64,000 bases of DNA from positions 3,354,976 to 3,418,975 of the forward strand of contig OX387187.1 of assembly GCA_947561395.2 (NCBI GenBank), given 5' to 3'. The notes under the pieces are model-generated. The model was not told the origin of the DNA and did not search any database. It was given only the letters and a program-made list of their open reading frames with translations. The number at the start of each line of letters is the position of its first letter. Within the stretch, counting starts at the first letter, position 1. This document shows positions 2,409-56,654 of the stretch, in pieces. This stretch comes from Buxus sempervirens (lineage: Eukaryota; Streptophyta; Magnoliopsida; Buxales; Buxaceae). Position numbers and translations under genes: made by a program.

Positions 2409-4488
2409 GATCATTCTGATCGGGAAATGAAGAGAGGCAATTTTTGAGCCTCAATAAAATTCTTTCAACCCAATAAATGTGTCCTACATGATAAACTGGG
2501 CATTTTGAAAAAAAAAAACAAAAATTGGGAAAATGAGTACCCAACAAAAACAAAGAAAAATGAAAAATCAGGATGTAGGCCCCAAAATCAATAAAAGGTA
2601 GAAACACTGTTTGAAAAAAACAGCCTTTTGAGTCATTTGTCTTTTTTTCATAACCCAGAACCCAACCTACATTTCATCCTATCTTTAAGACCTCTCGGAT
2701 CCCAAGAAGAATGATCTTGGCAGAAATCCAGTTTGCATTGGTTGGCGATGACAAAATCAATGGCTTTTAGAAAGTTTGGACATAGTGAAAACCCGAAAAA
2801 GGGCACTGTGTGCAAAAATGACCAATCTTGGCCAAAGAAAAAGAAAGAAAGAAAGAACGAAAAAAAAGAAGAGAGAAGAAAGGGCATCAAAATGGTCAAG
2901 TTTGGATTGAGCAGAGCAGGAAACAGAATGAGCCGGAAGCAAAACAGAGCAGTGAATCAAGAAAATCTGAAAGATACCAAGGATGAACAAAGTGAAGTTG
3001 AAGGGCTCAAGCCAGCAGACTTCGTTTGAGGCAAAGCATCACCGGCCTGTGATGACAATGTTACTAAAAATGCCAAGCACACTTAGTCCCATCTGATCCT
3101 AGGGACAAATCCTCTCGGAGTTGCTAACACTCTCACACACTAACACATCTGCTTTTCTTCTGCTTAGTTCAGCTTAACTGTTTTTGAAATAACTCCAACT
3201 TGTGCTGCTAACCTAAGTCCACCAGGTTCATGACTTGGATAAGAGGCCCCCCATTTCTGTAGCAGGCAATGATCAAAAGAAGAAATTGAAAATTTTTGAT
3301 AATACTCCCTAGCGAGTCACAACTGAAGGTTTTTCTTTTGTTTCCTTTTAGGAACAATCTGGCAAGAGAAGAAGAAAGAGGAAAAGGAGACTCATTTCAA
3401 CAAATCCCCAACGAAGTTCCTTCCAGGAATGAAGCACCTCTCACACCAGATGCGTCCATGGTTGGTGAAAAGAAAGCAAGAACCTCCAAGGAAAGAAGGG
3501 CATTTCCTATCCAAACCCCAGTGGAGCTTCATTACCTAAAGAATAGTACCTAAGGTGAGAAGGACATCAGGTAGTGGAAGATGCACCAAAGCAATGCCCA
3601 ACAGGAGAAGGATGGCATCACCTTTTCACTTGGATGAAGAAAGTCGATAGAAGGGTAAAAGGCTACTCCACTCGCTCCCTAGCGGCGTTATCTATAACCA
3701 GGAGGAGCCTTATCCTAAGAAGAACAAGAGAATGAAGAGCACTCTACTACAAATCCTCAGCAAGGATCCCACAATTCAAAAAGTCCTACCATAAAAGCCT
3801 CACCAAAGGACGAAGGAAAAGCTCTTCAAAAATTTCCAAGAGGAGTTATCTTTAACTAAAAAGAGTCTCACTCCAAGCAAAACAGCCTGAAGGAAAAGAA
3901 ACAAAAGAAGATCTCAAGACATGAAAAAGCAGAAAGAATGAAAGTCTGAGGGCAGAGATCATCCTTTTGTAATTTTGGTACCCCTTTTTGTAATTTTTGT
4001 TACCACTTTTGTAAACAGAATAGGTTTGGTGAAGAGCTCCTTGGAATGCCTGGCAGTAGTGAAAGTCCCTTTGAAGCCTCATCATTAAATCCAAAAAATA
4101 AATAAAATAAAAAAGGAAAAAAAATTCAAGTCAAAGGGTAATGAAAATGAAAATGAAAAAAAAAACCTTAAAAGCTTTAATGGAACAAACGAAGAAACAA
4201 AGAACAGTGTTGAGCGCCCCTACATTGACACCCAAAAAGGTAGGCGCGTATAAGTCCAAGCCTCATCCTTTTTAAACTAAAAGACAGGGAATGCATTTGT
4301 AAGCCGAATGGCACGTAAACTCCCAAAACCCTGAAGTACGCCAGAAGAATGCAAACTTTGCGTTAGGCGCTTCCCAAAAAAAATAGTCAAAGGACTTAGC
4401 TTATCGACAATGTCACAGAATGCAAAAATCATGGTTCTTTTATTTCTTTTCCATTCATCAGCAAGGTGACTCCGCAAAGAAAGGTAGC
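2409..4488 (+). other. 3' noncoding segment of the T2 element, ending in the polypurine tract
   Basis: This is about 2.1 kb between the integrase stop and the T2 LTR. I see no convincing reading frame on either strand, and no antisense ORF of the kind in the matching segment of T5. It has many A-rich and GA-rich runs. The last bases, GCAAAGAAAGGTAGC at about 4474-4488, are the likely polypurine tract. They align with GCAAAGAGGGGCAGT next to the T5 3' LTR. Confidence 0.6.
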
Positions 4489-17704: not shown

Positions 17705-20700
17705 TGTAAGCACCTTATTTTTGCACCCCTGGAAGTGCTGAAGATGAAAACCCTAGCGAAAAAGTCAAATCCTGAGGGATGAAAATTTGACCTTTTGATC
17801 AAGTGATAATTGGCCACCCTACTTTATCTAAGTGGATAGGGAATCCCGACACGAGACCAACGCAACTGAGTTTGCTAGAATCGGAGTCCGGATGACGGTT
17901 CTGCGGGCCAGTCAAACTTGAGGGAAAGCCGAGAGTTGACTTTTCCTCGAATTCCGTGCCAAATGCCTTGATTTATCCTAATGGATAGAGAATCTCGACA
18001 CGGTTCCAGCGCAACTGGGTTTGCAGGAATCGGAGTCCAGATGAAGGTTCTAAGGGCAGTCAAACTTAAGGGAAGGCCAAAAGTTGACTTTTCCTCGGAA
18101 TCCGTGCCAAGTGTTTAGCCCCATGCATTAAATAGAGGGCTCGGATACGAGTTCAACGCAATTGAGTTTGCTCGAATCGGAGTTCAGATGAGTGAAATAT
18201 GATCTGTCAAAGCTTCCGAGCAGCAAAGCCAGAAACTGCACACGTGGCGCAGGAACTGCGCACGTGGCGACCAACGCAGCAAATATCTCAGGGACTAAAT
18301 CTTAAATATAAAAATTTCGTACGGGCGATTCGTAGATATCCGAAAGGGTCAAATCGGTCGAATTGGTCAAGTTGAAGGGCAAATCCGTAATTTTTCGACT
18401 TGTATCCGGTCAAATATACCGGATACACTAGCTTCCCTTCATGGCCGGACTTGAAGACCGGATACAAGAAGATTTTCGCGCGAGATCCGCGCCGATCGCC
18501 CGACAAATTCGCGGCGGCATTTAATTTTCAAATGATTATGTTTTGTATCCGGACTTGAAGACCGGATACAAAGGGGCCTCAGTGTATCCGGACTTGAAGA
18601 CCGGATATGAATAAGCCTCAATGTATCCGGCCTGAGTTGCCGGATACATTAATGTGTGTATAAATAGCAAACCAGCAGCTCATATCCGGGGTTGGCTTTT
18701 TTTGGCTGCCTCCACCCCTTCTCCTCCACCCTTCCTAGTACGAAACCAGCCTCTTTCACCCCTCTTAGCCTCCATGCCAACCAAAGACCACCTAGAACCT
18801 ATCTAACCCCTTTCCTCCCTCTTCTTCTCCATTTTCCTCACAACCAAGAAGGAGTTGCTGTTGGTGGAAGGAAAAGGTGCTACTCCAGTAGCTTTTTGAG
18901 CTTCAAGAGGATCTCTACACACTACAAGAAGGGATTCTGACCCTCAGGTATAGCTTCCTGTTAAGTTTCTTTACATATATATAAAAATGGAGGTTTTCTA
19001 AGCATATCTATGAGCATGATTTTTTCCCCTGCCGTAAGCCTATTCTGGGGACCTTGTGGCATGGGTTTGCCCCTCATTCCACCACATGAAGGCCACCAAA
19101 AGTAGGAGGCCCAGGTCTGGTTTCATGAGAGCATGTGGGTCTTGTCCTTACATGCCCTTTGTTAAATTCATAGGTTGCTGTTATGAGCTTGATTTGATGA
19201 TTTGTGGGGGGAGCATGTTCCCCCAGCATGAAGTCTAATGTATCCCCCATTTTAACCCCCCATTCTCATCCTTTCCTTGCTGTGGATTTTGTTGTTTTGT
19301 TGTTTATGTAGCCTATGATTCTCTGCTGTATTTTATCCAAGGGGAAGGAGAGTGGGAGCCTCATCCATCTCCCTTGGTATTGATTTCAAATCTCCCCAAA
19401 AAAAAGTGACCGAGAGGAGGTCTTCCTCTCACCTGGACCACTGTGGGCTCACCCAGGAGCCCACACAACCCCTGGAACATCCCAAGAAGCATGAAAACCC
19501 AACCCCAATGCGAAAAATCCAAAAAAATAGCTTCTGTAGGTTGATCCGGCAACTCAGGCCGGATCAACAGAAGCCCACGTGTAGCCGGCTATAGATACCG
19601 GATACACAGAACCCTGTGTGTAATCGGCATCTCAGGTCGGCTACACTGCCAGAATTCTTTTTTTGCTATTTTGTGATTTTGTGCAATATTTTGAATTGTT
19701 TGATCAAATTCGGGCAAACCAGTAGGGTTTCCAGGTCACCCGGAAACCCAAAATGGGCCATGGACCGACCCGGTCCAAATTAATTCCGGTGGGCCTTCCA
19801 ACGGGGCCCACCAAGCTCGACCAACCCACTTGTGCCTAAATAAGATAAATGAGAGATTTCAGTGGGCCAGACCATTTGAGGCCCACCCAAGCCCTATTTG
19901 GACCATGCATGCTTAAAGTAGATTGTGGTTTGGCCGAGACCACGGGCAGGGCCTGTCGGGCCCACTAAGCCCATTAAACCAAGGTTAGGGTGTCAAAACC
20001 CTAATTCAAGAAGTCTTGGGCTTTCAGGCCCAAGCCCAGGTAAAGGGCCCCAAGCCCAATGCTTGGCCCGTTTTGGCAAAGGTTAATCAAAGATAACTCA
20101 AATCACTTGGCAAACAATTAGGCGGCCCACTCAAGGGCCCATAAACAGTCCCGGCTCACTTATGTATAAAACTCACTTAAATAAATCAAACTGGAATTTA
20201 AATAAAATCAATTTACTCAAACCAAAGCCCAAAGGGCCTCTCAGGTTTAGACTGGGGCCCACCAAGGGACATGTGGGCTCAACCAAGCCCACCAAGGAAT
20301 CCGCGGGCCTTCCAACGGGGCCCGCCCAATCAGACTCACACCACTTTAAGCTAAGAAGGATAAAACCAAGTAAAGGGACCCACACCACTTTGGCGGTCCC
20401 GCCAGACTTAATCAAATCTCATGCTGGGATAGGAATCGGGTGAGTGAGAGACCAGAATTGACTCAAACCAGGGAGACTTATGGGACCCGTCATTTGACGG
20501 GGGGGACTGGGGTGTCTACGGACTTCCACAGACCGCAACCGAGAACATACTTAGAATCTCAAGCCGCAGACCAAGCCTTAGTAGAAGAACTTAGGCACCC
20601 AGGTGTCTGCCTACACCCCATCAGGCAGTGGCAACTCCAAACAAACCCCGAGGCCCGCATCGTTTTGCGAGCGCCTCGCAGTGCGACCGAAATCGGGTGC

Positions 20701-23140: not shown

Positions 23141-25339
23141 TGTAAGACATGGGAAAAATCACCGGTGTGATCATCCCTCCGTCAACACACGGGGCTCGAA
23201 ATAAAACGGGAGAGTCGCCACCATTCATGATTTTGGGGTGAGAATGGACACCAAAATATTTAAAAATCATCAAAAAGTGCAAAAATGCCAATTCTAGGGT
23301 AAAAATAACCCTACTTAAAAATTAAATCCAGAGATGGGTAAGGGGATTAGATTATGAACGGGGGAAGGTGTTAGGCACCCCCATTCATGAAGATCTAAAT
23401 GGATTTTAGATCCTCTCTTATGTCAATATCATTTCTGGAATATCTCAAAAGATGGAAATCAAAGCACAAGTTGCTCAAAACCAAGTTGAATCAAATCCGG
23501 GAAGTTTGGTAAAAAGTATGCCATTTGCCTTAAAATCATTCAAATCCAATATTAAATTGAACCAAACCAAGTCCATTTGAAAGATTAGAGAAAATAAGAG
23601 TCTCATGCAAAATTTCAATCCATTCCGATAAAAATCCTAGGAGTTATACTCCTTTGAAGTTGCTGCTGGGGATTTTTAAAAGTGATAAGTGGGCAAATTT
23701 GGAAAATTGCATAGAAAAATCCACTCCATAAAAATCCACGAAATTTGGTGTGATTGAAGTCTGTATGGCCATATTTCAAAAGAAACTAGCCTCATACAAA
23801 AATCCCTTCGGATGTGCCTTGGGTGATATCCCGAATAGGCCCCGAAGATCACAGATTCACCCAGAAAAATGCCATTGAGCAGTTCTGAGTAAATCGGCTA
23901 CCAATAATTCAAATGGAATCCAAAAATTATGAAACTAACTGGATTTGAAAATAGACTCATAAAAGAGTACTTAGAAACAAAAATCACTTGAATCGGACTT
24001 AAAACGAACACATGACGATCCGTCGAAGTGACAAGTTCTGTATTTAAACCTGAACTGTCCACTCAACTTCGACAGAGAGGTGTCAAAAATCCGTTTGATG
24101 GAAATTTCTGAAATTTGGTGGACATAAACTAGACAGCCTCACCTTTCCCATGGTTCTAGAATCGCCCCAAAATTCATCCGGATGATGAAGTTATGGGCGT
24201 CCGAAGTAGGGGTACAGGTGCTGTCAAGCTAAGCCATTCTTGAAGAAAAAACCAAATCCGAAAATTGATACCAATATGTGATTCGTGCAAGATGAACACA
24301 AATACTTTAAAAATCATCCAAAAGGCATTCCAGAATTGATTGAGGCCATTTATTTGAGATTTATCACAATAAATGCAATAAACCCCAAATATGAGCCTAT
24401 CCCGCCAAAATAGTGATATGTATGTGCAAGTGTAAAAAAACCAAACAATATCAATAGCATGCATACATATTCATCCAAATAGGGTTCTAAGACAGCCTAG
24501 GGTTCCGTTCCATTATCGTTTCCCTCTGTTCTCTCTCCCCGTTAAACACGGTTCTTCAAGATAATCAAGGGTACTTTGAATATGGAACGGTTCACAATCA
24601 ATCAAAAAGGCCTTATGCTACATGGGTTCTAGCACTAGGGTCAATCCCCAGTCTCGTTTCTCCTAGATCCGCCTTCACGTTTTACGGCTAGGGGAGTCTT
24701 GAGATACTTTGAGCCGGGGAAGGATTTCCACACATACAAACAAGGCTTTACACTACAGAAAGGTAGAAGAAGAGATCTAGATCTAGGAATGTAAAGACAG
24801 AAAATAAAAAGAAAAGTTGAGGCTTACTTGAGTTCTGGAGGCGATTCCGCAGCGGTTTTCTTATTCTCTTGGAGTTCTTCTTTGCGAGAATTCAAAACAA
24901 GAGTTGAGTGCCATTTGCTTAAGGAGGAGTCTTCTATTTATAGGCAAAGGTTAGGGTTAGGGTTGGTGAGAATGGTAGACACAACATAATGTCTATAGCC
25001 CACCAACCTTAACCCTAAGGCTATTTCCGTGATTTCCACTCATTTAATGAGGGATATGATGGTAAAAGTGAAAAGCTCTCGGAAAACCCTAATTTTGAGC
25101 AAACTTAATGTATCCGGTATGTCAGACCGGATACACAAGGGCCTTAAGGTATCCGGTACATGGTATCGGATACACTAAGGCTCACCTGTATCCGGTATGA
25201 GTAACCGGATACAGGAAGGAGTACTTGTATCCGGCCTGAGTATCCGGATACAGGTAAAAGTTTATTTTCTTCAATTTCTGTGCTGGCTTTCAAGGAGAAT
25301 GATTTTTGATGATTGTTTGTGCAATTTGGGGTGTCTACA
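23141..25339 (-). mobile_element. T5 3' LTR (2199 bp)
   Basis: On the minus strand it begins TGTAGACACCCC (25339) and ends CATGTCTTACA (23141). Compared with the 5' LTR it lacks 102 bp near 23388 between two CAT trinucleotides, suggesting a microhomology deletion. Four palindromes lie at 25109-25252. The TATA box lies near 24940 and the donor (CTCAA then GTAAG) is at 24827/24826. Confidence 0.95.
25109..25252. promoter_or_regulatory. Four GTATCCGG palindromes in U3 of the T5 3' LTR
   Basis: 25109-25135, 10-bp arms, spacer ATGTCAG. 25149-25173, 11-bp arms with one mismatch, spacer ATG. 25185-25215, 12-bp perfect arms CCTGTATCCGGT / ACCGGATACAGG, spacer ATGAGTA. 25226-25252, 9-bp arms, spacer CCTGAGTAT. 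Spacing between units is about 35-40 bp. Confidence 0.9.
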
Positions 25340-35325: not shown

Positions 35326-35465
35326 TATCCGGTATAATATACCGGATAAGAATATGCCTTATTGTATCCGGTCACCCTAACCGGATACACGCATATGCCT
35401 TTGTATCCGGAAATACATACCGGATATGAATAGAGTTGTTATTAACCGGCCTGAGTTGCCGGTTA
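35326..35465. repeat. Second GTATCCGG palindrome cluster, in the T5 leader
   Basis: 35326-35348 has 11-bp arms TATCCGGTATA / TATACCGGATA around one A. 35363-35389 has 10-bp arms TGTATCCGGT / ACCGGATACA. 35404-35426 has 7-bp arms. 35443-35465 has arms TAACCGG / CCGGTTA, where both sides have changed together. The cluster lies about 300 bp upstream of gag and about 3.5 kb downstream of TATA. Confidence 0.88.
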
Positions 35466-39067: not shown

Positions 39068-39211
39068 TGTATCCGGTATGTCAGACCAGATACACAAGGG
39101 CCTTAAGGTATCCGGTACATGGTACCGGATACACTAAGGCTCACCTGTATCCGGTATGAGTAACCGGATACAGGAAGGAGTACTTGTATCCGGCCTGAGT
39201 ATCCGGATACA
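39068..39211. promoter_or_regulatory. Four GTATCCGG palindromes in U3 of the T5 5' LTR
   Basis: 39068-39094 (one mismatch, CCAG). 39108-39132, perfect 11-bp arms GTATCCGGTAC / GTACCGGATAC around ATG. 39144-39174, perfect 12-bp arms. 39185-39211, 9-bp arms. Same order and spacing as in the 3' LTR. Confidence 0.9.
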
Positions 39212-40478: not shown

Positions 40479-42734
40479 TGTAAAACCCCGATATTTTCTA
40501 CGTGGTTTTATTATTTATTTTGAAGAATAAACTTAATAACCTGTGTGTATGTAGGAAATTTTGGTGGGAGAGCATGTACGGAATCATAGGTTTTCAAAAC
40601 TCGTCGAGCGGCAATATTAGTATGGTAAGTATAAATACTTAAGGAAAATAGTCGTAGGGTTCGCAATACCTCTCATACTTTGTATTGAAGGCGATTGCGG
40701 CTATTGATCTAGGTTTTGGGTGAGAAGAAGAACTGTGAGAGTTCTTGCCGATTTGTGTGTTCGTAATCAAGGGTTTCAGAAGAAAAGCAAACTCTTGCAA
40801 ACAGAGGATCAACCGGGTGTCGATTTTGAACAGACGAGCGACTGTTGGTGATCGGCCGTGGTTCAAGTAGTTGTTGTTGCAGGGATTTAAGCGTGCAAGA
40901 GGCGAGTAGCATCATTTTAAAACTGGGTTTTGGATTTGATCCGTGAGGTTAGTCGTGTTGCATATGATTCTGGAAAATATAGTTCGAGCCGTGAGTTTTG
41001 TTTTAGGATTTCTAGAGATAAATTATAATGTGTTTAGAATAATTTCGAAACTGGTTTCAAAGTCTTCTGGGGATAGTAAGAGGCTAGGAAAATTGTTGCA
41101 AACATTAAAAATTCAGTCAGTCATGGAGATTTTGAATTAACAGAGAGTTGAAAATCGTAGGGGGTATCTGCTGGGTTGGCGCCTACCTAGCGCCAATTGG
41201 TTTTAGTCGACGCAAGACCGATTCTCCTTATCACCAAGTTCGCGCCCATCTCGCGCCGAGCGGTTTCGTTAAGCGTAAGACCTAATTTCCTTAACGCCAA
41301 TCTCGCGCCTAGCTCGCACCTAGATTTATTTGAGTTAGCGCGACATGTTTATTTTACTAATGAGCTATCGCCGACCTTGCACCAAGCGCCAGAGGTCAGC
41401 GCAAGCCCCTATACTTTGCCGAAATGTGAAATTTGACCAATCCAGCTAGATTTTTGATACTTTGAGGGTTCAATCACTTAGCTATTGACTTGTTTAGGAC
41501 CTTAGAAATATTATTACCTGTTCAAACACTCTGAGATTATTAAGTGGAATTATTGGGAATCCTTAGGAGTTTCAGAAGTGAATTTTAGGGCTATCGGTAG
41601 GTGATGTTATTGTTCCAAAACACTAGGAGTTCATGAATTATTTCCTTTTTGTTATACACCTGTTTCTTGAATGAGAATTGTTTAATCTGGCTTTTACTTG
41701 ATTTAAAGTTCCGAACTGCATTTGTAAAGTTACTCTTGGTGTGAGTAAATGGGTTTTATTACCAATGGTCTTGTGTTATGAGATTTGAGTAAATACTAAA
41801 AGAACATGAGGTATTGTTCGGGTCTAGAGGGACATGTGTTGAGCTGTGTTGTGTTGTGCATGATGATGAGTATTGTTGATTTAATATGATGTCAGAGTTG
41901 AGTTTATACGTTGATTGCTGTTTTGTTTTAGCTTGTCCTGGATCCATGCTTAAGCTTAGTAATGTAATGGTGTTGTTGGTTGTTGTAATTGCATGGCCTT
42001 GTGTGTTGCCACGACCGGTGTAGAGCAGCCAGAAACCCTGAGTAGGCCTGGTTCTCAATGCCGAAACCCGGGGAGTAGGCCGTCATTTCAGAGTTTCCGA
42101 AACCCTGAGTAGGCCGGAACTGTGTACATGGAGGTGTGGAGTGTCTACTTGGCATGTTAATTTATTAACTTAACAATAGTCATGACACGGACCAATCGAT
42201 GTGTTGTCGATATTGAATTGAAATGTGATTGGAAACAATTATTGGTTATGGATTTAAACTTAGAGATTGTATTGGTTGCTAAATCGTACTGGTTATTTAT
42301 CGATGCATAAATTTGAACTGTTGTTAACTATTTCTGCATGCATATGCTACTCACTTTACTCACTGAGATATTCGTATCTCACTCTTTTGTTTTTGTTTTG
42401 TTTTTCAGATACTGAGGTGAGGCGACTACTGGGGTAGATCCGACTGAGACATATAGGGAGGAAGATTACTATTACATTCCTTAGACCTGTAGGTTATTTT
42501 TGAATTGAACTTTGAATTAATTGAATGTTTTATGTGTAATAAAGTAGTTTGAGGTTGAACCATTTGATCTTAGTTAAGTTGAATATTGAATTCTTAGATA
42601 AAGTTTGATTGTGCACTCTGATATGGTTTAGTTTAGATAATTATCCAGCGATCATATATTCTTTAAGATCCTTACCTAACACTCCGTTAGACGTGTTATA
42701 TCTTTATTGAACAACACGGATTTGGGGCGTTACA
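40479..42734 (+). mobile_element. K4: solo chromovirus-type LTR inside the Cassandra 3' LTR
   Basis: It starts TGTAAAACCCC and ends GGGGCGTTACA, with exact TSD TAAGT (40474-40478 and 42735-42739). TATAAATAC is at 40630. The donor position about 270 bp downstream reads GAG then GCGAGT (40902), so GT has become GC. Three loop-conserved hairpins lie at 42027-42113. Confidence 0.92.
42027..42113 (+). repeat. Three hairpins with loop AAACCCTGAGTAGGC in K4
   Basis: Arms: AGCCAG / CTGGTT (one G-U), AATGCCG / CGTCATT (one mismatch, loop AAACCCGGGGAGTAGGC), AGTTTCCG / CGGAACT (one bulge). They lie about 1.4 kb downstream of the TATA box. Confidence 0.75.
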
Positions 42735-42810
42735 TAAGTAGTCTTAAGACCCCCAACTAAGCAAGAGGCCTTTTAAGGAACAACACGGGACTAAATCCCC
42801 TTGGGACCCT

Positions 42811-42876
42811 AAAGTTAAGCGTGCTCGAGTGAGAGCACTACTAGGATGGGTGACCACTGGGAAGTTTTCTCGTGTT
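42811..42876 (+). pseudogene. 5S rRNA-derived segment in the forward Cassandra LTR
   Basis: AAAGTTAAGCGTGCTC ... TAGGATGGGTGACC ... CTCGTGTT, the typical 5S segment with box A and box C. It is embedded in the LTR. Confidence 0.88.
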
Positions 42877-42955
42877 ATCCTTGAGAACAAATCCGTGAGG
42901 GCGCGTGGGCCCAGAGCGTACAATATCTTGTTGGGTATGGGTCCGGGACGTTACA

Positions 42956-43507: not shown

Positions 43508-44846
43508 GTAATGCCTTGGTTCCAGGTCAAATTTTCCCAGCCCCGAGGTGTTATAATAAGTTACAAAAGCAACTAAAAATCTGAATCCATTTAAGCCTTT
43601 ATTAATTTCATCATCAGAGTTCTATGCAGAAACAAGAAATAATATCCACTAACAACTTATCCTTAACAATTACAATGTTCTTAATATCAAGAAACTAATT
43701 TTACAACTAAACTGACTACCCCTTTACATACTAGCCCAAGTTCGTCGTCCTCGACAAGAATACCTTAAAAATTGGGGAAAACTAGAGTGAGAATAAATCT
43801 CAACAAGTAGGAAGGTGCATGCATGAAATCAGTCCATAATTTTCATAAACATAAGTCATGAGGTGTACGATTAAACCAAAACAACAACTAGAGAAACGAT
43901 AATATAGAAATCACGGCAAACAGCATACCACCTTGTAGCATCACACAATGAAAAACAATCATTACACCAAGAAGTATCCCGTCGAGTATACGGATCGAGG
44001 AAGTAAACCAAATAACAAGTAACCAGCTTCCCACCGAGTACACGGATCGAGGAAGTATCCCACTGAGTACACGGACCGAGGATATAAACAACAATAACCA
44101 GCTTCCCACTGAGTACACGGATCGAGGAAGTATCTCGCCGAGTACACGGACCGAGGATATAAACTTAGTAACCAGCTACCCACCGAGTACACGGACCGAG
44201 GATATAAACTTAGTAACCAACTTCCCACCGAGTACACGGATCGAGAAAGTATCCTGCCTAGTACACGGACCGAGGATATAAACAACAATAACCAGCTTCC
44301 CACCGAGTACACGGATCGAGGAAGTATCCTGCTGAGTATACGGACCGAGGATAAACAAATAACCACATCCGCCCTGCAGAAATAATAAACCAGACACCTG
44401 CCTTGTCACAACTGTGATCCAAAAACCCACACAAGTGGAGTCAAATACATGCTTCAAGATCACGGTTTCAGTGGGCAAAATAATCCAAGTATATGTACAA
44501 TAATTCGGAACTCAAAACATGTCCAGATAGACCAAATACAGGTGTAGGAACTCTTAGAATCAAGTTTGGTTAAGAATAGAATTGTTTGGAACAAAGGTAT
44601 TAAGTTGAAAAGCCTCTTTGGTAAAATCTACCCAAATTTATTATAAAAATTAATTTTAAACATCCGCCAGTGCAAACAATCTCCAAACTCCCTAAACTTG
44701 ATGGTACAAAGGTTAAAAATGGATAACAACAATTCCGTAGTGAAAAACTAGGTTGGAAGACAAATTTTCAAAATCTGACAAACAGGGCGCTCGAGAGGCA
44801 ATAGGGCACTCGAACGGCCTTACACCTCAGTTGTTTCAGGGTTTGT
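43508..44846 (-). mobile_element. K5: chromovirus-type LTR, left part
   Basis: On the plus strand it opens TGTAATGCC, the inverted LTR end. It contains the ten-unit hairpin array at 43972-44353. It is interrupted by K6 and resumes at 47246. The flank on this side (K3) does not match the flank at 48035 (T6), so the original insertion site has been rearranged. Confidence 0.55.
43972..44353 (-). repeat. Ten-unit hairpin array with core CCGTGTACTCGG in K5
   Basis: Ten copies of a unit occur (plus strand GAGTACACGGAYCGAGG). Flanking arms are CTTCC / GGAAG or TATCC / GGATA, and the two types largely alternate. About eight of ten units pair correctly; the first and sixth do not. With K6 removed, the array starts roughly 1.05 kb downstream of the K5 TATA box. 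Confidence 0.8.
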
Positions 44847-48034: not shown

Positions 48035-50678
48035 GTCCGGGTGAAGAAGATATGAGCTACCGAAGTTTCTGAGCAGCAAAACTGGAAGCTGCACACGTGG
48101 CGACAAACACAGCAAAATATCTTAGGGGGCAAACTTTAAATATCCAAAACTTGCCAAATATCTCAGGGACTAAACCAAAATTAGCAAGGGGCAATCTGCA
48201 GATATCTAAAAGTGTCAAATTGGTCAAGTCGAGTGGCAAATCTGTAAATATCGTGTTTGTATCCGGTCATGTATGTTGGATACAAATAATTCTGTGCATA
48301 TCCGACATATATTGCCGAATACAAGAGATTTGCCCGCGAGATTTGTGCAGATTCGTTGACAGATTCGCTCAGAAAATTGAATTTTTGAAATAATTGTGCT
48401 TGTATCCGACATTTTATGTTGGATACAAAGGAAGCTTAGTGTATCTGACATTAAATGCCGGATACAAAGGAAGTGTAGTGTATCCGACATTAAATGCCGA
48501 ATACAAAAAGTTTGCTATAAAAAGGCAATAGAAGCCCTATTTCGGGGTTGGCTTGGTTTTGGCTGTTTTCCACTTCTTCTCCCCCACGAACCTTGCTCCG
48601 AGATCCCTCCTCCAAGCCCTTCCTTGCCTCCATAAGCCCCCAAACACCCCACCTTGAGCTTCCTCTCTCTCTTAACTTCTTCCCCTTCATTTCCATCCAA
48701 GCAAGTGGAGGCTTGCTGCTGTTGGTGGTGCCAAGGGAGGCTCCAGCACCTGTTCTTGCTTCAAGGAGAAGCCCACACACTCAAAAAGGGGTCTAGACCC
48801 CCAAGGTGAGCTCTTTGTTTTACTTTGTTTCACATATATGAGCATGGTGTGATTTGGAGCACATAAAGTTCTATGTGTATTATGTGTATGCTGTTGGGGA
48901 TGGTTGTTTTACTTTCTTCTTCATTCTCTTCACGTTTTCCACACCACCACAAGGATGTAATCCTTCCAAGGTAAGGTGGGTGTTTTGGTCGAACCATAGG
49001 AAGGAGATGAGTGACTTTTAGTTGGCTTTTAAGCACCCTAAAATCACTGTCTCTTGTCCCATATTGCTGATTGTTGTGCTTTTATTCGATAGGGGAGGGT
49101 GTTCCCCTTTAATCTTATCTGATGTACCCCATGAGTAACCCCCCCCCCCCCCCCTTGTTCCCTTCTTTAAGTGCCTTTTTTAGAATAACTGAACAATCTG
49201 CATTGATAGGAGGCTGAAAATAATATGCTATGCACATTGAGTTTGTGCTCTAGTTTTCATTTGCATATGGTCTAGTTGATGTTGCATGCATGCATGGATT
49301 AATCATGGTTTAAGTTATGTGTTTTACCCCTTTTCGGGATCATGTCAACGCCTACTTTTAGCTGCTGTTTTGTGTGTTTTCATCATGATTCTATTTCTGT
49401 TTTAGTCACTATTTTGAGTCATAAAAAAGCCCATTCGGCCTTCTACATATTTCATAGACAGGTTTACTTTTGCATGCATTGAAGATATATCTAGGAGCTC
49501 TGCATGTTCCACTGTTTAATGTAATTCGCATGCATCTAAAACTTGTTTTGTAGCTCTTGATGGTGTAACTCATTACTTAGTTCAGTTTTAGGTTGAAACA
49601 TGCTTAGGGATGCCGTAGTTTGCTTTTTGTTTCATGCAAAGTTGATGATGTGTTTGTTTGGGAAAAAGAAGCCAGAATAGGGACACTTGAGTCCCTGTTT
49701 GTGCAGTGATTAGGGATAGAAAAAAGGGAGGAGGCAAATCCCAGCCCCCATCTTTTTCCTTTGGTTCTCAAAAGCTCTTCAAGAGAAGCCAAGTGGCTCT
49801 CATCTGAACCATTGTGGGCCCACAAAGGGGCCCACCCAAATGTTGGAACACCCTAGAAGACCCAAGAACTCAAGCCCAATGCAAAAATCCGAAAAACCAT
49901 GTTTTTAGGTTGATCCGACAACTCAGGTCGAATCAACAGGGCCTTGTTTGTAGCCGGCCAAAGACGCCGGATACATTTGTCCTTATGTGTAACCGGCATC
50001 TCAGGTCGGCTACACTGCCAGATTGCTTTTTTTGCTATTTTGTGGTCTTGTGTTGTTTTCTTGTCCTGTTTAATCAATCCGGGTGAACCAGAAGGGTTTC
50101 CGGGTCAACCGGAGACCCAAGATGAGCCATGGACCGACCCGGTCCAATTTGATTTCCAGTGGGCCTTCCAACGGGGCCCACCAAGCCCGACAAACTTACT
50201 TTTGCTAAATCAAGATAACCTAACTGAATGAGTGGGCCACACCATTGGAGGCCCACCAAAGCTCAACTGGGGAAGCTTGATGCTTAGATTTAGGCATGGT
50301 TTGGCCAAGACCACAGGTAGGGCCTGTCGGGCCCACTAAGCCCATTGAACCCAAAAAAGATTAGGGCACCCAAGCCCTAACTCAGGAAGTCTTGGGCTTT
50401 CAAGCCCAAGCCCAGGTAAAGGGCCCCAAGCCCAAAGCCTGGCCCGTTTTGGCATGGATTAAGCAAGATACTCAACAAACCTGGCATCCCAAGGGCCTGC
50501 AAGTCAATCCAGACTCACTTTTGCATGGAAATCAAATTTAATCTCCAAACTTGAAATTTAAATAAAATTGATTCATTGAACCAAAGCCCAAAGGGTCTCT
50601 CAGGCTAGACTGAGGCGCACCAGGGGACACGTGGGCTCAACCAAGCCCACCAAGGAATTTGCAGGCCTTCCAACGGGG
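48035..50678 (+). mobile_element. T6: Tat-type 5' LTR, left part (its start is missing)
   Basis: The sequence parallels T4 from about its position 18185 onward. G-box word CACACGTGGC at 48092. Palindromes at about 48255-48505, such as arms TTTGTATCC / GGATACAAA. TATA box TATAAAAAG at 48516. Splice donor (CCAAG then GTGAGC) at 48805/48806, 290 bp downstream, with no ATG in the exon between. A run of 16 C lies at about 49139-49154. More CCGG palindromes lie at 49910-50020, then GGGCCCACC-rich sequence. It is split at 50678 by K7 (TSD CGGGG). Confidence 0.85.
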
Positions 50679-51793: not shown

Positions 51794-54585
51794 TGTAAGA
51801 CCCCAGTTTTGAGTAAAAAAAAAAATAATAAATAATAAAATAATAAAATGAAATAATAATAATAGAATAAAAATAAACAAATAATAACAGTAGATAAAAT
51901 AAAAGTATATGCACATATGGATGTATGTACAGGTTAAATCAACTTTATTATTGCTAGAAATTTGTGGTCATTAGGGTTAAAGAAAATGAGGTGGAAATAT
52001 TTATACGTAGGTCATATTCGGACCGGAAATAAATAAAAAATGGGTCAATGGTTAAAATCCGGGAAAACCCTACACTAAGGAGGGGTAGAAAGGGGATTCC
52101 CAGGGTAAATGGTGAATTAGGTTAAACCCTCGCGGTGTATAAATAGGTAACTGATATAAATTTTTGGGGTTTTGGGGGAATGTTGTTGCTCTGAAATTAG
52201 GGCGGCTACTGTGGCGATTAGGGTTTCGCTGGGAAGAGATGAGAACCGCAAGAGTTGCTAGGAGTTTATTGGAGTCGGATTTCTGCGGGTTATCTCTCTC
52301 GCGAGCAGAGGAGTTGTTTGGCTACCATTTCATCTTCGCGCGCACCCGGAAATCGCGATCGGCCGAATGGGGAAGAAGCTGTTGTTCTGGGATTAAGCGC
52401 ATACGGTGAGTAGCACTGTTTTACAACTGGGTTTTGGTGTTTTGTGTTTTCTCGAGTTATTCTGATGCATGGTTTGTATATTAAGTGATGGTATGATGTT
52501 TTCTGGTTTTTCTGGTTTTTCGGAAAGTTACGTGAACAGAGTCTCCGGATTGAAGTTTTAATTGAAAATGAAAGTGTTTAGATTAATTTCAAATGTGGTT
52601 GGGAAGTCTTCTGGGAGTATTAGGAGTGTACTGGAGTAGTTACAGACCTTCACAAACCGGCCAGTCATGTAGATCTCAAAATAACAGAGAAATGAAAACC
52701 CCAGGGGGTATCCGCTCACCTCGCGCTCACCGGCGTTCACCTCGGAGGTAGGCGCCCCGTTAAAAATGACCTACCGCCGATCCCGCGCCCACCTCGCGCT
52801 CATCTCGCGCGAAGTAGAAAACAAGGCGCCCATCTCGCGCGAATCTCGCGCCCACCTCACGCCCATCTCGCGCTCATCTCGCGCTCACCTAGCGTCGGGT
52901 GAGCGGCAGGTCGATTTTGCCCGTTTTCTTCACTGCCGACCGGCGCTCACCTCGCGCCGACCTCGATAGGTGAGCGGCAGACCTATTTTGCTTACCGAAA
53001 TGGAATTTCTGATTTGACCAAGAGTATTTGCACTTCTTAGGGGTTAAACCACTTCACTATTCACTTGGTTAGGAACCTGGGAAACCATTTTGCCTATGAA
53101 ATTAATAGAGGAAAATTTGTGAACCTCTTAAGAGTTTTTAAGTTGGGTTTAGGTTACTTATGAGTATTGTGCCAGACACCAAACTAGTAAGAGTTACCAG
53201 TTACTTTTCCTTGTTCTATACACTGTTTTGATTGAGAAGTTCTTGTATTTCTGGTTTCACTTGTTGGAAACTTTATACGTATTGAAAGGTTTTCTTTGGT
53301 ATGAATGGATTGAGTTTTACTTTCATATGACTTGTGTTACGGAAATGAGAAATTACTGAATGTACTTGAGGTACTGCTTGGTCCAGAGGGACAGGTGATG
53401 AATTGTGATGAGTAATTACATGATGTGGAAATGAATGGTTTGTTTTGATATTGAAATCGAGATTATACGATGTTTACTGTTTTGGTCTAGCTTGTCCTGG
53501 ATCCAGAGTCTAAGCTTAGTAATGTGATGTTATTGTTGGTTGTTGGAATTGCATGGCCTTGTGTGTTGCCACGACCGGTGTAGAGCAGCCAGAAACCCTG
53601 AGTAGGCCTGGTTGTCAATGCAGAAACCCGGGGAGTAGGCCTGCATTGGATGACGAAACCCTGAGTAGGCCGTCATTTCAGAGTATCCGAAACCCTGAGT
53701 AGGCCGGAACTGTGTACATGGAGGTGTGGAGTGTCTACTTGGCATGTTTAATTTATCAACTAAACAATAGTCATGACATTGACCAATGTTGGTATTTGAT
53801 TTTGTTTGACGTGATATGTTTTATTCGCTGGTTTGTTGGTATTTATGGTTCATGGAATATCGTTTACCGATTATTGGGTATTGTACCTCCCGCCGGTGTA
53901 GAGCAGCCAAGAACCCTGAGTGGGCCTGGTTGTCAATGCAGAAACCCGGGGAGTAGGCCTGCATTGGATGACGCAGTCATTTCAATATCCGAAACCCTGA
54001 GTAGGCCGGATATACATTTGGAGGCGTGGGCATGGTTATGAGAAGACTTGGTGTTATGTGACATTGGTATATCTGGAATTATATCTTGAGATACAAAATT
54101 ATGCTTATTTGCTATGTTGTTGCCAATTAATCATTATTTTATCGATATCTTCGGGATTGGAAACGGATTGTTATTGCTTGATTTACCTGATGGTTTTCCG
54201 CACTGATATGAATTGGATTATTGAAGTTTAGTCGGATTATTCGGAATATGCGTATTATCATCATTGTACATGGTTATAATCGTGGCATGTTTTAGAACTG
54301 AAATAAATGTATTTGTGCATGCATGTGCTGCTCACTGGGATATTCGTATCTCATTCCGTATTGTTTTGTTTTGTTTTCAGCTGCTCCTGGAGAGGACGAT
54401 ACTTGCGGGTAGTTACTTGGTCATGTGAGTTTATTTTCGTTTGGGATTATTTTAGCGCACTCTGTTATATAGTTATTGTTGTATTCATGTTTTTCCTTCA
54501 CTCTGATATTGCGATCCTGTGTTTTATAATAACCTCTGGAGACGAGTTACGGGTTTTTCATGTGACTCGGATCCGGGGCGTTACA
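51794..54585 (+). mobile_element. K8: solo chromovirus-type LTR inside K7
   Basis: It starts TGTAAGACCCCAG and ends GGGGCGTTACA, with exact TSD AAGTC (51789-51793 and 54586-54590). TATAAATAGG is at 52138 and the donor (ACG then GTGAGTAG) at 52405/52406, 268 bp downstream. CTCGCGCTCACCTCGCGCC-like words are dense at 52715-52975. Two hairpin arrays lie at 53586-54013. Confidence 0.95.
53586..54013 (+). repeat. Loop-conserved hairpin arrays in K8
   Basis: The loop is AAACCCTGAGTAGGC or AAACCCGGGGAGTAGGC. First array: arms CAGCCAG / CTGGTTG (53586-53614), CAATGCAG / CTGCATTG (53616-53648), ATGACG / CGTCAT (53650-53676), and a weaker fourth at about 53684-53711. Second array: CAGCCA / TGGTTG (about 53904-53932), CAATGCAG / CTGCATTG (53934-53966), ATGAC / GTCAT with the loop lost (53968-53980), and ATATCCG / CGGATAT (53985-54013). 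Confidence 0.88.
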
Positions 54586-55258
54586 AAGTCAACGTTTTTA
54601 ACCATACTTAGAATATTTTGAGGTCCAAAACTTTTTGTCTCAGAATTGATTGCTTTTTCGTATGGTGACCTTATAGGGGATTGTAAGACTATTCCACTCA
54701 TCCAAAATGTGTTTCCAGGGTTTTATGACATTCATTTGATTGATTTGGATTATGAAAGCGAAATTTAGAATCTAGGAGCTGTTTTGTTGGATTATGTTTA
54801 ATCGAAGTTTGATGCTGAAATCATTTCTGTATAATGTGCTTTATTCTGAAAATTCAGTTTTGAAACCATATTGTTTTGCTGAAATACCTCTACACTATTA
54901 TGCTAGTTCACCTTTGAATGCACGGTGCACTTCAGGAATGATTTACTTGAATATTGCTTTATATCGGTGGACGGTTTAGAATCATATCTTATTCTGTTCT
55001 GGTAAATTATTTGAGAATTTCTTTGAGGACTCCATGAGCGAGTAAGCTGGTCCTGAGTGACATATGGTATGCACTTGAACACGTTGATCTATATATATCA
55101 GTTTTACATGATGGACAATACATTGGGTTGATTTGCTAGTTTTATACTTACTACTGGTTTAGCTTGTCCTGGATCCAGAGTCTAAGCTTAGTAATGTAAT
55201 GTTATTTGTTGGTTGTTGGAATTGCATGGCCTTGTGTGTTGCCACGACCGGTGTAGAG

Positions 55259-55690
55259 CAGCCAGAAACCCTGAGTAGGCCTGGTTGTCAATGCAGAAAC
55301 CCTGAGTAGGCCTGCATTGGATGACGAAACCCTGAGTAGGCCGTCATTTCAGAGTTTCCGAAACCCTGAGTAGGCCGGAACTGTGTACATGGAGGTGTGG
55401 AGTGTCTACTTGGCATGTTTAATTTATCAACTAAACAATAGTCATAACATTGACCAATGTTGGTATTTGATTTTGTTTGACGTGATATGTTTTACTCGCT
55501 GGTTTGTTGGTATTTATGGTTCATGGAATATTGTTTACCGATTATTGGGTATTGTACCTCCCGCCGGTGTTAGAGCAGCCAGAAACCCTGAGTAGGCCAG
55601 GTTGTCAATGTAGAAACCCGGGGAGTAGGCCTGCATTGGATGACGCAGTCATTTCAATATCCGAAACCCTGAGTAGGCCGAATATACATT
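55259..55690 (+). repeat. Loop-conserved hairpin arrays in K7
   Basis: First array: CAGCCAG / CTGGTTG (55259-55287), CAATGCAG / CTGCATTG (55289-55319), ATGACG / CGTCAT (55321-55347), AGTTTCCG / CGGAACT (55353-55382). Second array at about 55576-55690, including a loop-less ATGAC-GCA-GTCAT at 55640-55652, as in K8. Confidence 0.85.
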
Positions 55691-56257
55691 TGGAGGCGTG
55701 GGCATGGTTATGAGAAGACTTTGTGTTATATGACATTGGTATATCTAGAATTATATCTTGAGATACGAAATTATGGTTATTCGCTATGTTGTTGTCAGTT
55801 AATCTTTATTTTATCGAATTCTTCGGGATTGGAAACGGATTGTTATTGTTTGATTTACCTGATGGTTTTCCGCACTGATATGAATTGGATTATTGAAGTT
55901 TAGTCGGATTATTCAGAATAGGCGTATTATCATCATTGTACATGGTTATAATCGTGGCATGTTTTAGAACTGAAACAAATGTATTTGTGCATGCATGTGC
56001 TGCTCACTGGGATATTCGTATCTCATTCCGTATTGTTTTGTTTTGTTTCCAGCTGCTCCTGGAGAGGACGATACTTGAGGGTAGTTACTTGGTCATGTGA
56101 GTTTATTTTCGTTTGGGATTATTTTAGCGCACTCTGTTATATAGTTATTGTTGTACTCATGTTTTTCCTTCACTCTGATATTGCGATCCTGTGTTTTATA
56201 ATAACCTCTGGAGACGACTTACGGGTTTTTCATGTGACTCGGATCCGGGGCGTTACA

Positions 56258-56654
56258 CGGGGCCCGCCTAATCCGACTCACATCACTTTAAGCTAAGAAG
56301 ATAAAATCAAGTAAAGGGACCCACACCACTTTGGCAGTCCTGTTAGACTTAACCGAATTGAATGCTGGATTAGGAATCGGGTGAGTGAGAGACCAAAAGT
56401 TGACTCAAACCAGGGAAATCAAGGGACCCGTCACCCGACGGGGTGGACTGGGGTGTCTACGGACTTTCCCAGACTGCAACCGATAACTTGCTTAGAATCT
56501 CAAGCCGCAGACCAAGCCTTAATAGAAAAACAAAAGCACCCAAGTGTCTACCTGCACCCCATCAGGCAGTGGCAACTACAACTTCCCAAATTACCCATTC
56601 GGAGGCACACGCACGAATCGCGTGCGCCCTGCATGCCATTTTCACATGCGCACA
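56258..56654 (+). mobile_element. T6: Tat-type 5' LTR, right part
   Basis: It resumes with CGGGG after K7, carries the GGGGTGTCTACGG word at about 56452, and ends GCGCACA at 56654, three bases before the PBS. Confidence 0.85.

Follow-up and report, generated by a model that had tools for sequence, protein, structure and literature searches.

The 64,000-nucleotide stretch of Buxus sempervirens DNA analyzed here (assembly GCA_947561395.2, contig OX387187.1, forward strand; hereafter the window) carries arrays of small hairpins within long terminal repeats (LTRs) of the Ty3/gypsy type. The main array consists of four different hairpins in a fixed order, all with one kind of tip, and is not a free array. 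We propose, with a probability of about 0.5, that it belongs to a cis-acting RNA domain that would mark unspliced genomic RNA for export or packaging. That the array is under selection at the RNA level is, to judge from the comparison of genomic copies, very probable; if this is granted, the marking role has roughly even odds. The observations behind the proposal are the pattern of the structure, the covariation of the arms, a modest sense-strand bias, the position of the array and the near absence of spliced copies from the genome.

The 15-nucleotide word AAACCCTGAGTAGGC, the standard tip region, was matched 15 times in the window when up to three mismatches were allowed, against 1.7 matches expected, and none of 100 shuffles attained this number. 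Twelve of the matches were exact and two, with three mismatches each, lay outside the arrays (22664 on the minus strand, and 61813). Across the 676.5-Mb genome there are 11,578 exact copies of the word and none of its reversed control. The window holds 17 loop-bearing units (three near 42.0 kb, seven in 53586-54013 and seven in 55259-55690) and two further copies of unit 3 in which the loop was lost (GATGACG-CAG-TCATT, at 53967-53981, and the corresponding copy near 55640), in agreement with the approximately 18 units counted in the initial annotation. The units are spaced by about 31-34 bp, and Tandem Repeats Finder called part of the array as 30-33-bp repeats. The stretch 53586-54013 comprises two sub-arrays, 53586-53711 and 53904-54013. 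The arms of the chimeric middle unit in the 42-kb array are no longer complementary, and in the U1 unit near 55580 the inner pair is a mismatched A.A. The same annotation had described the word as enclosed by differing complementary arms, and both arms and loops were found where it had placed them. Its description of a fixed 15-nucleotide loop needs to be relaxed, as the U2 units of the window mostly have AAACCCGGGGAGTAGGC and further forms exist. Its changing stems do differ from one position of the array to another, whereas within one position they are mostly constant. The TATA box that it placed about 1.4 kb upstream of each array was found for two arrays (at 52137 and about 40630) but not at the partial LTR copy that holds the 55.2-kb array. 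This partial LTR (about 1,672 bp; window 54586-56257) directly adjoins the end of the first LTR, and two stretches of the partial LTR that include arrays (267 and 300 nt) match the first LTR with identities of 99% and 94%. Coordinates are collected in Table 1.

Table 1. Positions in the window of the hairpins, of the LTR features around them and of a separate set of palindromes.
Feature	Positions	Strand	Description
U1 hairpin	53586..53614	+	CAGCCAG / CTGGTTG enclosing AAACCCTGAGTAGGC
U2 hairpin	53616..53648	+	CAATGCAG / CTGCATTG enclosing AAACCCGGGGAGTAGGC
U3 hairpin	53649..53677	+	GATGACG / CGTCATT; 98.7% of cells paired in alignment A1
U4 hairpin	53682..53711	+	AGT(a)TCCG / CGGAACT; bulge at 53685
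Second sub-array	53904..54013	+	U1', U2' (53934-53966), loop-less U3' (53967-53981), U4' ATATCCG/CGGATAT (53985-54013)
Second copy of both sub-arrays	55259..55690	+	Within partial LTR; offset about 1,672 bp
Third array	42025..42121	+	U1, chimeric U2/U3, U4
Proposed closed domain	53539..53760	+	P1 53539-53549/53751-53760, P2 53552-53558/53741-53746, P3 53569-53576/53723-53729, P4 53579-53582/53715-53718, then U1-U4
TATA-like box	52137..52146	+	About 1.45 kb before array
Putative leader intron	52406..54380	+	GTGAGT...TTTTCAG enclosing arrays; splice-like ends, splicing predicted from them
Conserved hairpin	54337..54352	+	GGGATA-UUCG-UAUCUC; just before putative 3' splice site, in second conservation island
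LTR 3' end	54575..54585	+	GGGGCGTTACA; TGGTATCAGAGC-type primer site next in some genomic copies, e.g. L047
Palindromes	18401-18648, 19580-19606, 25109-25252, 35363-35389, 39068-39211, 48479-48505, 49949-49975		TGTATCCGG-N9-CCGGATACA

For comparison, 46 loci were fetched from a single contig, C1, as the first places at which the word was listed in the genome. The array lies within an LTR of the Ty3/gypsy family in 45 of them; the remaining locus, L042, has no array of this type and was dropped, so that with the three window copies 48 arrays were compared. Forty-three of the 48 have the length of four units. The order of the units is constant: U1 is CAGCCAG/CTGGTTG, U2 is CAATGC(A or C)G/C(T or G)GCATTG, U3 is GATGACG/CGTCATT and U4 is AGT(n)TCCG/CGGAACT, with U1, U2 and U3 contiguous or at most one base apart. 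In the fold of a standard unit the outer stem is followed by an internal loop of 4x1 (AAAC/C) and then by a tip in which CCU and AGG pair around GAGU; the tip is thus partly paired and not a wholly open loop. In some LTRs the array is followed, about 320 bp further on, by a second sub-array with ATATCCG/CGGATAT as its U4. Variant arrays keep their pairing: L075 and L095 combine a U4 of this ATATCCG/CGGATAT type with a new paired U1 stem (CAGCATCG/CGGTGTTG in L075 and CAGCACTG/CGGTGTTG in L095), and the novel stem CGTTCCG/TGGAACG of L056 remains paired. Chimeric units also occur in L081, L094 and L107. Conservation was calculated in an aligned 2.4-kb part of 47 LTRs, reaching from about 1.25 kb upstream of the array to 0.95 kb beyond it and with the 55-kb window copy omitted. 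It was highest in the array bins (0.85-0.97), while most upstream bins reached roughly 0.6-0.78. A second island of conservation lies at about 54296-54386; the low values between it and the array are due in part to the fact that most LTRs lack the second sub-array of the reference copy.

The same tip is also found in a second LTR family (L042, at 2850-3400 of that locus, and L055-L074), which has one hairpin per unit inside GATTGGTCCGGAGTGACCCATGATAAACAC repeats. The stems of this family are of the CATTCCG/CGGAAT type and stand within the tandem repeats. The repeats also contain a short GGTCCTGAGTGACC, which could form a mini-hairpin of its own around a CTGAGT loop.

A covariation test across genomic copies, as proposed in the initial annotation, revealed more two-sided changes than expected. 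In alignment A1, which has 46 distinct rows, 97.5% of the stem cells were paired as compared with 95.7% after shuffling, and 24 cells showed two-sided changes versus 8.8, a number reached in 0 of 500 shuffles. When the structures were slid by one to three columns, pairing was merely 13-43%. The inner pairs of U2 and U1 were tallied by eye, twice, at the first 100 places of each in C1 order. The U2 pair (100 of 2,444 genome-wide matches) was A-U in 74 cases, C-G in 25, A.G in one and C.U in none, and the U1 pair (100 of 2,641) was A-U in 96, C-G in three, A.G in one and C.U in none. Each U2 stem state was seen with each of the loop forms GGGG and TG, indicating that the stem switched more than once or that recombination took place.

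The phylogenetic null model, in which substitutions were re-dealt along the tree, was our own re-implementation in the manner of R-scape and not that program. Forty further arrays were fetched, partly by their stem state, so the tree-based test of arrays and the wobble counts given below are enriched for stem state. Thirty-seven of these were used (L078, L083 and L113 were omitted, and L075, L085 and L095 were cut by hand coordinates), and the second sub-arrays of the two window copies were added. With 85 distinct arrays the E-value of the U2 inner pair was 0.001 when the pairs of the structure were considered and 0.25 when all column pairs were; that of the U1 inner pair was 0.055, and most remaining stem pairs are barely variable. 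A larger set of 163 distinct units from both families was aligned after removal of the U4 bulge and addition by hand of three odd tip forms, steps that lean towards the structure, with a tree built from the same 29 columns. The top five of 406 column pairs were all stem pairs, the same five as in an earlier run with 128 units, and the summed score of the seven stem pairs was 414.5 compared with a null mean of 7.5 and a null maximum of 165.3 (0 of 400 tree-based simulations). Units 1-3 of the main family served to train a covariance model (R1), which was compared with a sequence-only model (R2) on the second family. Of 58 matches in L042 and L055-L074, 54 scored higher under R1 and four under R2; the gain averaged 8.6 bits, with a median of 6.8. 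For this comparison 58 matches per model were retained in the 21 loci, out of 59 for R1 and 65 for R2, the weak matches (one for R1, seven for R2) being set aside; matches in L075, L078, L085 and L095 were excluded because these loci contain units like those used in training.

The flanks of the array can pair with each other, and such a closing stem probably makes the array one domain of about 220 nt. RNAalifold proposed a stem joining the flanks unprompted, and the minimum free energy (MFE) fold of the first array (246 nt, 53535-53780), as well as that of the second sub-array, included the closing stem and four hairpins. The MFE folds of shorter or other segments and of the second copy had the closing stem with U1-U3 only, and the register of this stem varies among folds, which agree in part. 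Helices P1 and P2 and the register of P3 were added by eye and named after inspection. Alignment A2 contained 46 of the 48 arrays, leaving out L017 and L018, which represent the same region as L016. In it the outermost P1 pair is A-U in 22 rows, G-C in 22 and G-U in two, a split that follows subfamily, and the score summed over the structure exceeded all 100 simulations and six slid structures. Taken together, the evidence for the P1 and P2 helices is suggestive. Folding energy was considered as a further line of evidence and set aside as unusable; the z values were ordinary.

The LTR is assigned to Ty3/gypsy by its TG..CA ends and primer site and by a Gag with a CCHC knuckle and a Ty3-type integrase beside it. 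The LTR ends in GGGGCGTTACA, and TGTAACACCCC-type motifs are present upstream in part of the loci. Directly after the LTR, L016-L018, L044 and L047 have the primer-site-like TGGTATCAGAGC, presumably complementary to a tRNA-Met-like primer. The LTRs of L047 and L048 are 98.2% identical over 2,538 bp and, judging from identity and spacing, would be the pair of a single element. A gag frame with a zinc knuckle follows L047 (Retrotrans_gag 4.7e-5, 24.0 bits with a cut-off of 24.1; zf-CCHC 2e-5), and pieces of an integrase precede the L048 LTR (rve 6.6e-5, below its cut-off; SH3_Tf2-1 2.5e-10). Chromo gave no match up to E 0.1 in three L048 pieces, the last of which ends at a stop and resembles a chromodomain by eye only. 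L016-L018 (C1 at about 8.88, 8.94 and 9.00 Mb) are three copies of one LTR region spaced by 61.03 kb; the identity between L016 and L017 is 100% across 4,974 bp. Either a large tandem duplication that happened recently or an artefact of the assembly could account for this.

The initial annotation had placed the arrays in the RNA leader. Two of them lie downstream of a TATA-like box, and the array is inside a putative intron of that leader. Splice-like ends could be located on both sides in 36 of 47 loci (donor GT in 33 and GC in three, acceptor CAG in 35 and CAA in one), counts that lean towards such ends because the motifs used to locate the sites include them; the 55-kb copy of the window was omitted. 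The segment between the ends measures 1.4-2.3 kb (median 1.57 kb) and contains the array, which lies about 1.1 kb inside it and from some hundred bases to about 1 kb before the 3' end of the LTR. The exact pattern AAGCG-N3-16-GTGAGTAGCA occurs 1,432 times in the genome, and its reversed control three times. The sequence before the donor differs by subfamily, with GTGAGTAGC mostly retained. Spliced LTR copies are nearly absent from the genome: a pattern that detects AAGCG exon ends only (22 of 39 donor-bearing loci) yielded one chance-like match, whereas donors of this exon type were intact in 1,432 places and acceptors in 1,738. This near absence means either that no splicing occurs or that spliced RNA is not copied back to DNA, and the latter would be explained by a mark of genomic RNA located inside the intron.

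These findings led us to propose that the leader of a very abundant plant Ty3/gypsy element contains a structured cis-acting RNA domain, of which the array would be the crown. Four side-by-side hairpins with like tips, probably held by the closing stem formed by the flanks (about 53539-53760), would have stems free to change mainly in pairs, while the tips would be kept because one protein, either the Gag of the element or a host RNA-binding protein, recognizes several equal tips together. Transcription through the array, splicing around it, protein binding and the role itself are inferred. Lying in the leader intron, the domain would be carried by unspliced full-length RNA only, and marking of genomic RNA is thus its most likely role: it may single out this RNA for export or for packaging and reverse transcription. 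A selected RNA domain could also serve another purpose, such as control of splicing or intron retention, translation of the leader, RNA stability or the binding of a host factor unrelated to packaging or export. The same structural evidence and the location of the array between the putative splice sites agree with these roles. That spliced copies are almost missing speaks slightly more for a mark on genomic RNA, yet it would also be seen if there were no splicing; we regard these other roles as possible but rather unlikely. Two specific functions were tried and rejected. A decoy for U1 small nuclear RNA, suggested by the resemblance of the tip TGAGTAG to the putative 5' splice site GTGAGTAG, was dropped since the T is lost in the GGGG/GG forms. 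Tip-to-tip dimerization was rejected for the standard tip, the homodimer energy of which was no better than that of shuffled sequences (fraction 0.46). Among nine tip forms, GGGG (0.05), ACACTATGAGTAGTC (0.08) and AGGG (0.10) did better and the rest gave 0.23-1.00.

Short inverted repeats favor quasi-palindrome correction and template switching, and such a process could re-match the arms during replication or reverse transcription with no selection on RNA. The loop loss at 53967-53981 and the chimeric units in the 42-kb array, L081, L094 and L107 indicate that these repeats do recombine. A DNA process would be strand-symmetric, whereas the stems show a sense-strand wobble bias, which is modest: tree events changed Watson-Crick pairs to G-U 83 times and to A-C 56 times in the sense strand, and the ratio of C>T to G>A per site was 1.50 in stems and 0.86 elsewhere (tip pairs were classed as unpaired). 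A DNA process should also mend fixed G-U pairs, yet those at U1 column 27 (42 of 45) and U3 column 88 (46 of 46) persist. Finally, it leaves unexplained the conserved tips and the variable bulge of U4, where 48 rows have A in 21, T in 12, G in eight and a gap in seven. This is the most variable position of the unit (0.56), while the two columns on each side are invariant. The wobble bias, the fixed G-U pairs and the variable bulge thus favor a sense-strand RNA, and an origin at the DNA level seems improbable. Hairpin duplication with template switching, the alternative named in the initial annotation, taken alone accounts less well for the covariation, the wobble bias and the bulge. The other explanation named there, selection for RNA structure with a recognized tip, is supported by the covariation across copies and families, the modest wobble bias and the variable bulge, with the amendment that the array lies inside the putative leader intron and is probably part of a closed domain. 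Very improbable is that the tip word is a repeated DNA-binding site of an enhancer or silencer with incidental arms: the spacing of about 31-34 bp is near three helical turns, but the array is downstream of the TATA box, and the arms, which a DNA site in the loop would not need, covary and stay paired across families. Ordinary tandem duplication, with arms paired by chance or inheritance and covariation due to shared ancestry, fits the repeat calls in part of the array and the modest E-values of single pairs and is the least probable explanation, as the units did not diverge without arm complementarity and the structure sums beat all tree simulations (0 of 400 and 0 of 100) and the six slid structures.

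Several results weigh against a selected RNA domain in a leader intron that marks genomic RNA. All analyses concern one genome. In A1, the number of pairs with a two-sided change (4 versus 2.1, 42 of 500 shuffles) and the number of pair types (21 versus 19.3, 59 of 500) were not significant, nor were the same two measures in the domain-level pair counts (90 and 128 of 500 shuffles). Only the U2 inner pair stood out against the phylogenetic null among the 85 arrays, and single pairs among the 163 units never reached an E-value below 1 (best 1.97). At the pair adjoining the internal loop, A-C exceeded G-U (23 to 15, four units together). The RNAalifold consensus kept U3 alone of the four hairpins, with U1, U2 and U4 absent and a covariation term of -0.3. 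The P1 pairs in A2 had E-values of 0.08-0.16 (0.08 for the outermost), not significant alone, and the top eight column pairs of A2 were not pairs of the structure and reflect subfamily linkage, the U2 pair being ninth. The folding energy of the whole domain was ordinary (z of -0.15, 0.31, -0.86 and -0.05), and the reverse strand was slightly better (z of -1.04). With T fractions of 0.34 in the putative intron, 0.27 in exon 1 and 0.37 in exon 2, the second exon is no less T-rich than the intron. AATAAA was present in only four of 34 second exons, and R and U5 were not placed for this reason.

A search of Rfam with positions 52000-56300 gave four matches to unrelated families (E 0.76-4.3), all below cut-offs, and in the whole window no family, hammerhead included, reached its gathering score. 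The initial annotation knew of no described LTR element of this design, and none was seen in the open-access literature, with subscription journals mostly outside the search; the tip sequence did not occur in the open-access literature searched, and a search there for an intron in an LTR gave unrelated papers only. Some retroviral export elements have repeated recognition loops. In the retroviral packaging signal (psi) and dimerization initiation site (DIS), several leader hairpins lie near the splice donor so that unspliced RNA is chosen; here, a like tip recurs about four times per array, possibly in two arrays per LTR, and the array is within the LTR. The hammerhead of retrozymes has its place in the LTR. 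These hammerhead RNAs are likewise a structured motif in plant retroelements, as presented in PMC4918200, whereas no hammerhead match to Rfam was obtained here. The constitutive transport element (CTE) of simian retrovirus, the RNA transport element (RTE) of mouse intracisternal A-particles (IAP), the MusD transport element (MTE) and the Rev response element (RRE) of human immunodeficiency virus are likewise structured cis-acting RNAs for nuclear exit of intron-containing full-length RNA (PMC12786077, PMC11379458 and PMC1363727). They are animal elements, while the present case is a plant Ty3/gypsy element with four equal-tip hairpins in a putative intron of its LTR and no Rfam sequence match. 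According to PMC12786077, the TAP/NXF1 receptor is not the one used by plants, RNA export of LTR retrotransposons has not been studied directly in plants, and plant LTR elements are generally devoid of introns, with exceptions such as Ogre and EVADE; this is a 2025 review. BARE, EVADE and Ogre are plant LTR elements that splice (PMC3735527 and PMC12786077), and BARE separates RNA for translation from RNA for replication (PMC3735527). The BARE1 intron is in gag and not in the LTR, BARE is of the Copia type, and a hairpin crown is not described for it in the passages of PMC3735527 and PMC12786077 consulted.

Other repeats of the window have different designs. The 15 palindromes TGTATCCGG-N9-CCGGATACA (at most one substitution per arm) mirror the hairpins, with near-constant 9-bp arms, free 9-nt loops and, in places, a spacing of exactly 39 bp. 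The regions at 42780-42955 and around 40254 resemble by eye 5S-rRNA-derived LTRs, which we take to be of the Cassandra type; the ends are of the TGTAACGTCCC type, and a primer-like site follows 40254. Rfam gave no match there at gathering score. A nested tandem array at 44010-44365 has units of 45, 75 and 119 bp based on CCGAGTACACGGAYCGAGG.

As a tentative generalization, some of the most abundant plant retrotransposons may carry in an LTR intron a multivalent RNA element, with four and in some LTRs up to eight equal tips on interchangeable stems, for export and packaging of unspliced RNA, a plant counterpart of RRE, CTE and psi. If this is true, how plant elements tell genomic RNA from messenger would become testable, and the naturally varied stems on conserved tips would be a ready-made mutational series for finding the protein that binds them.

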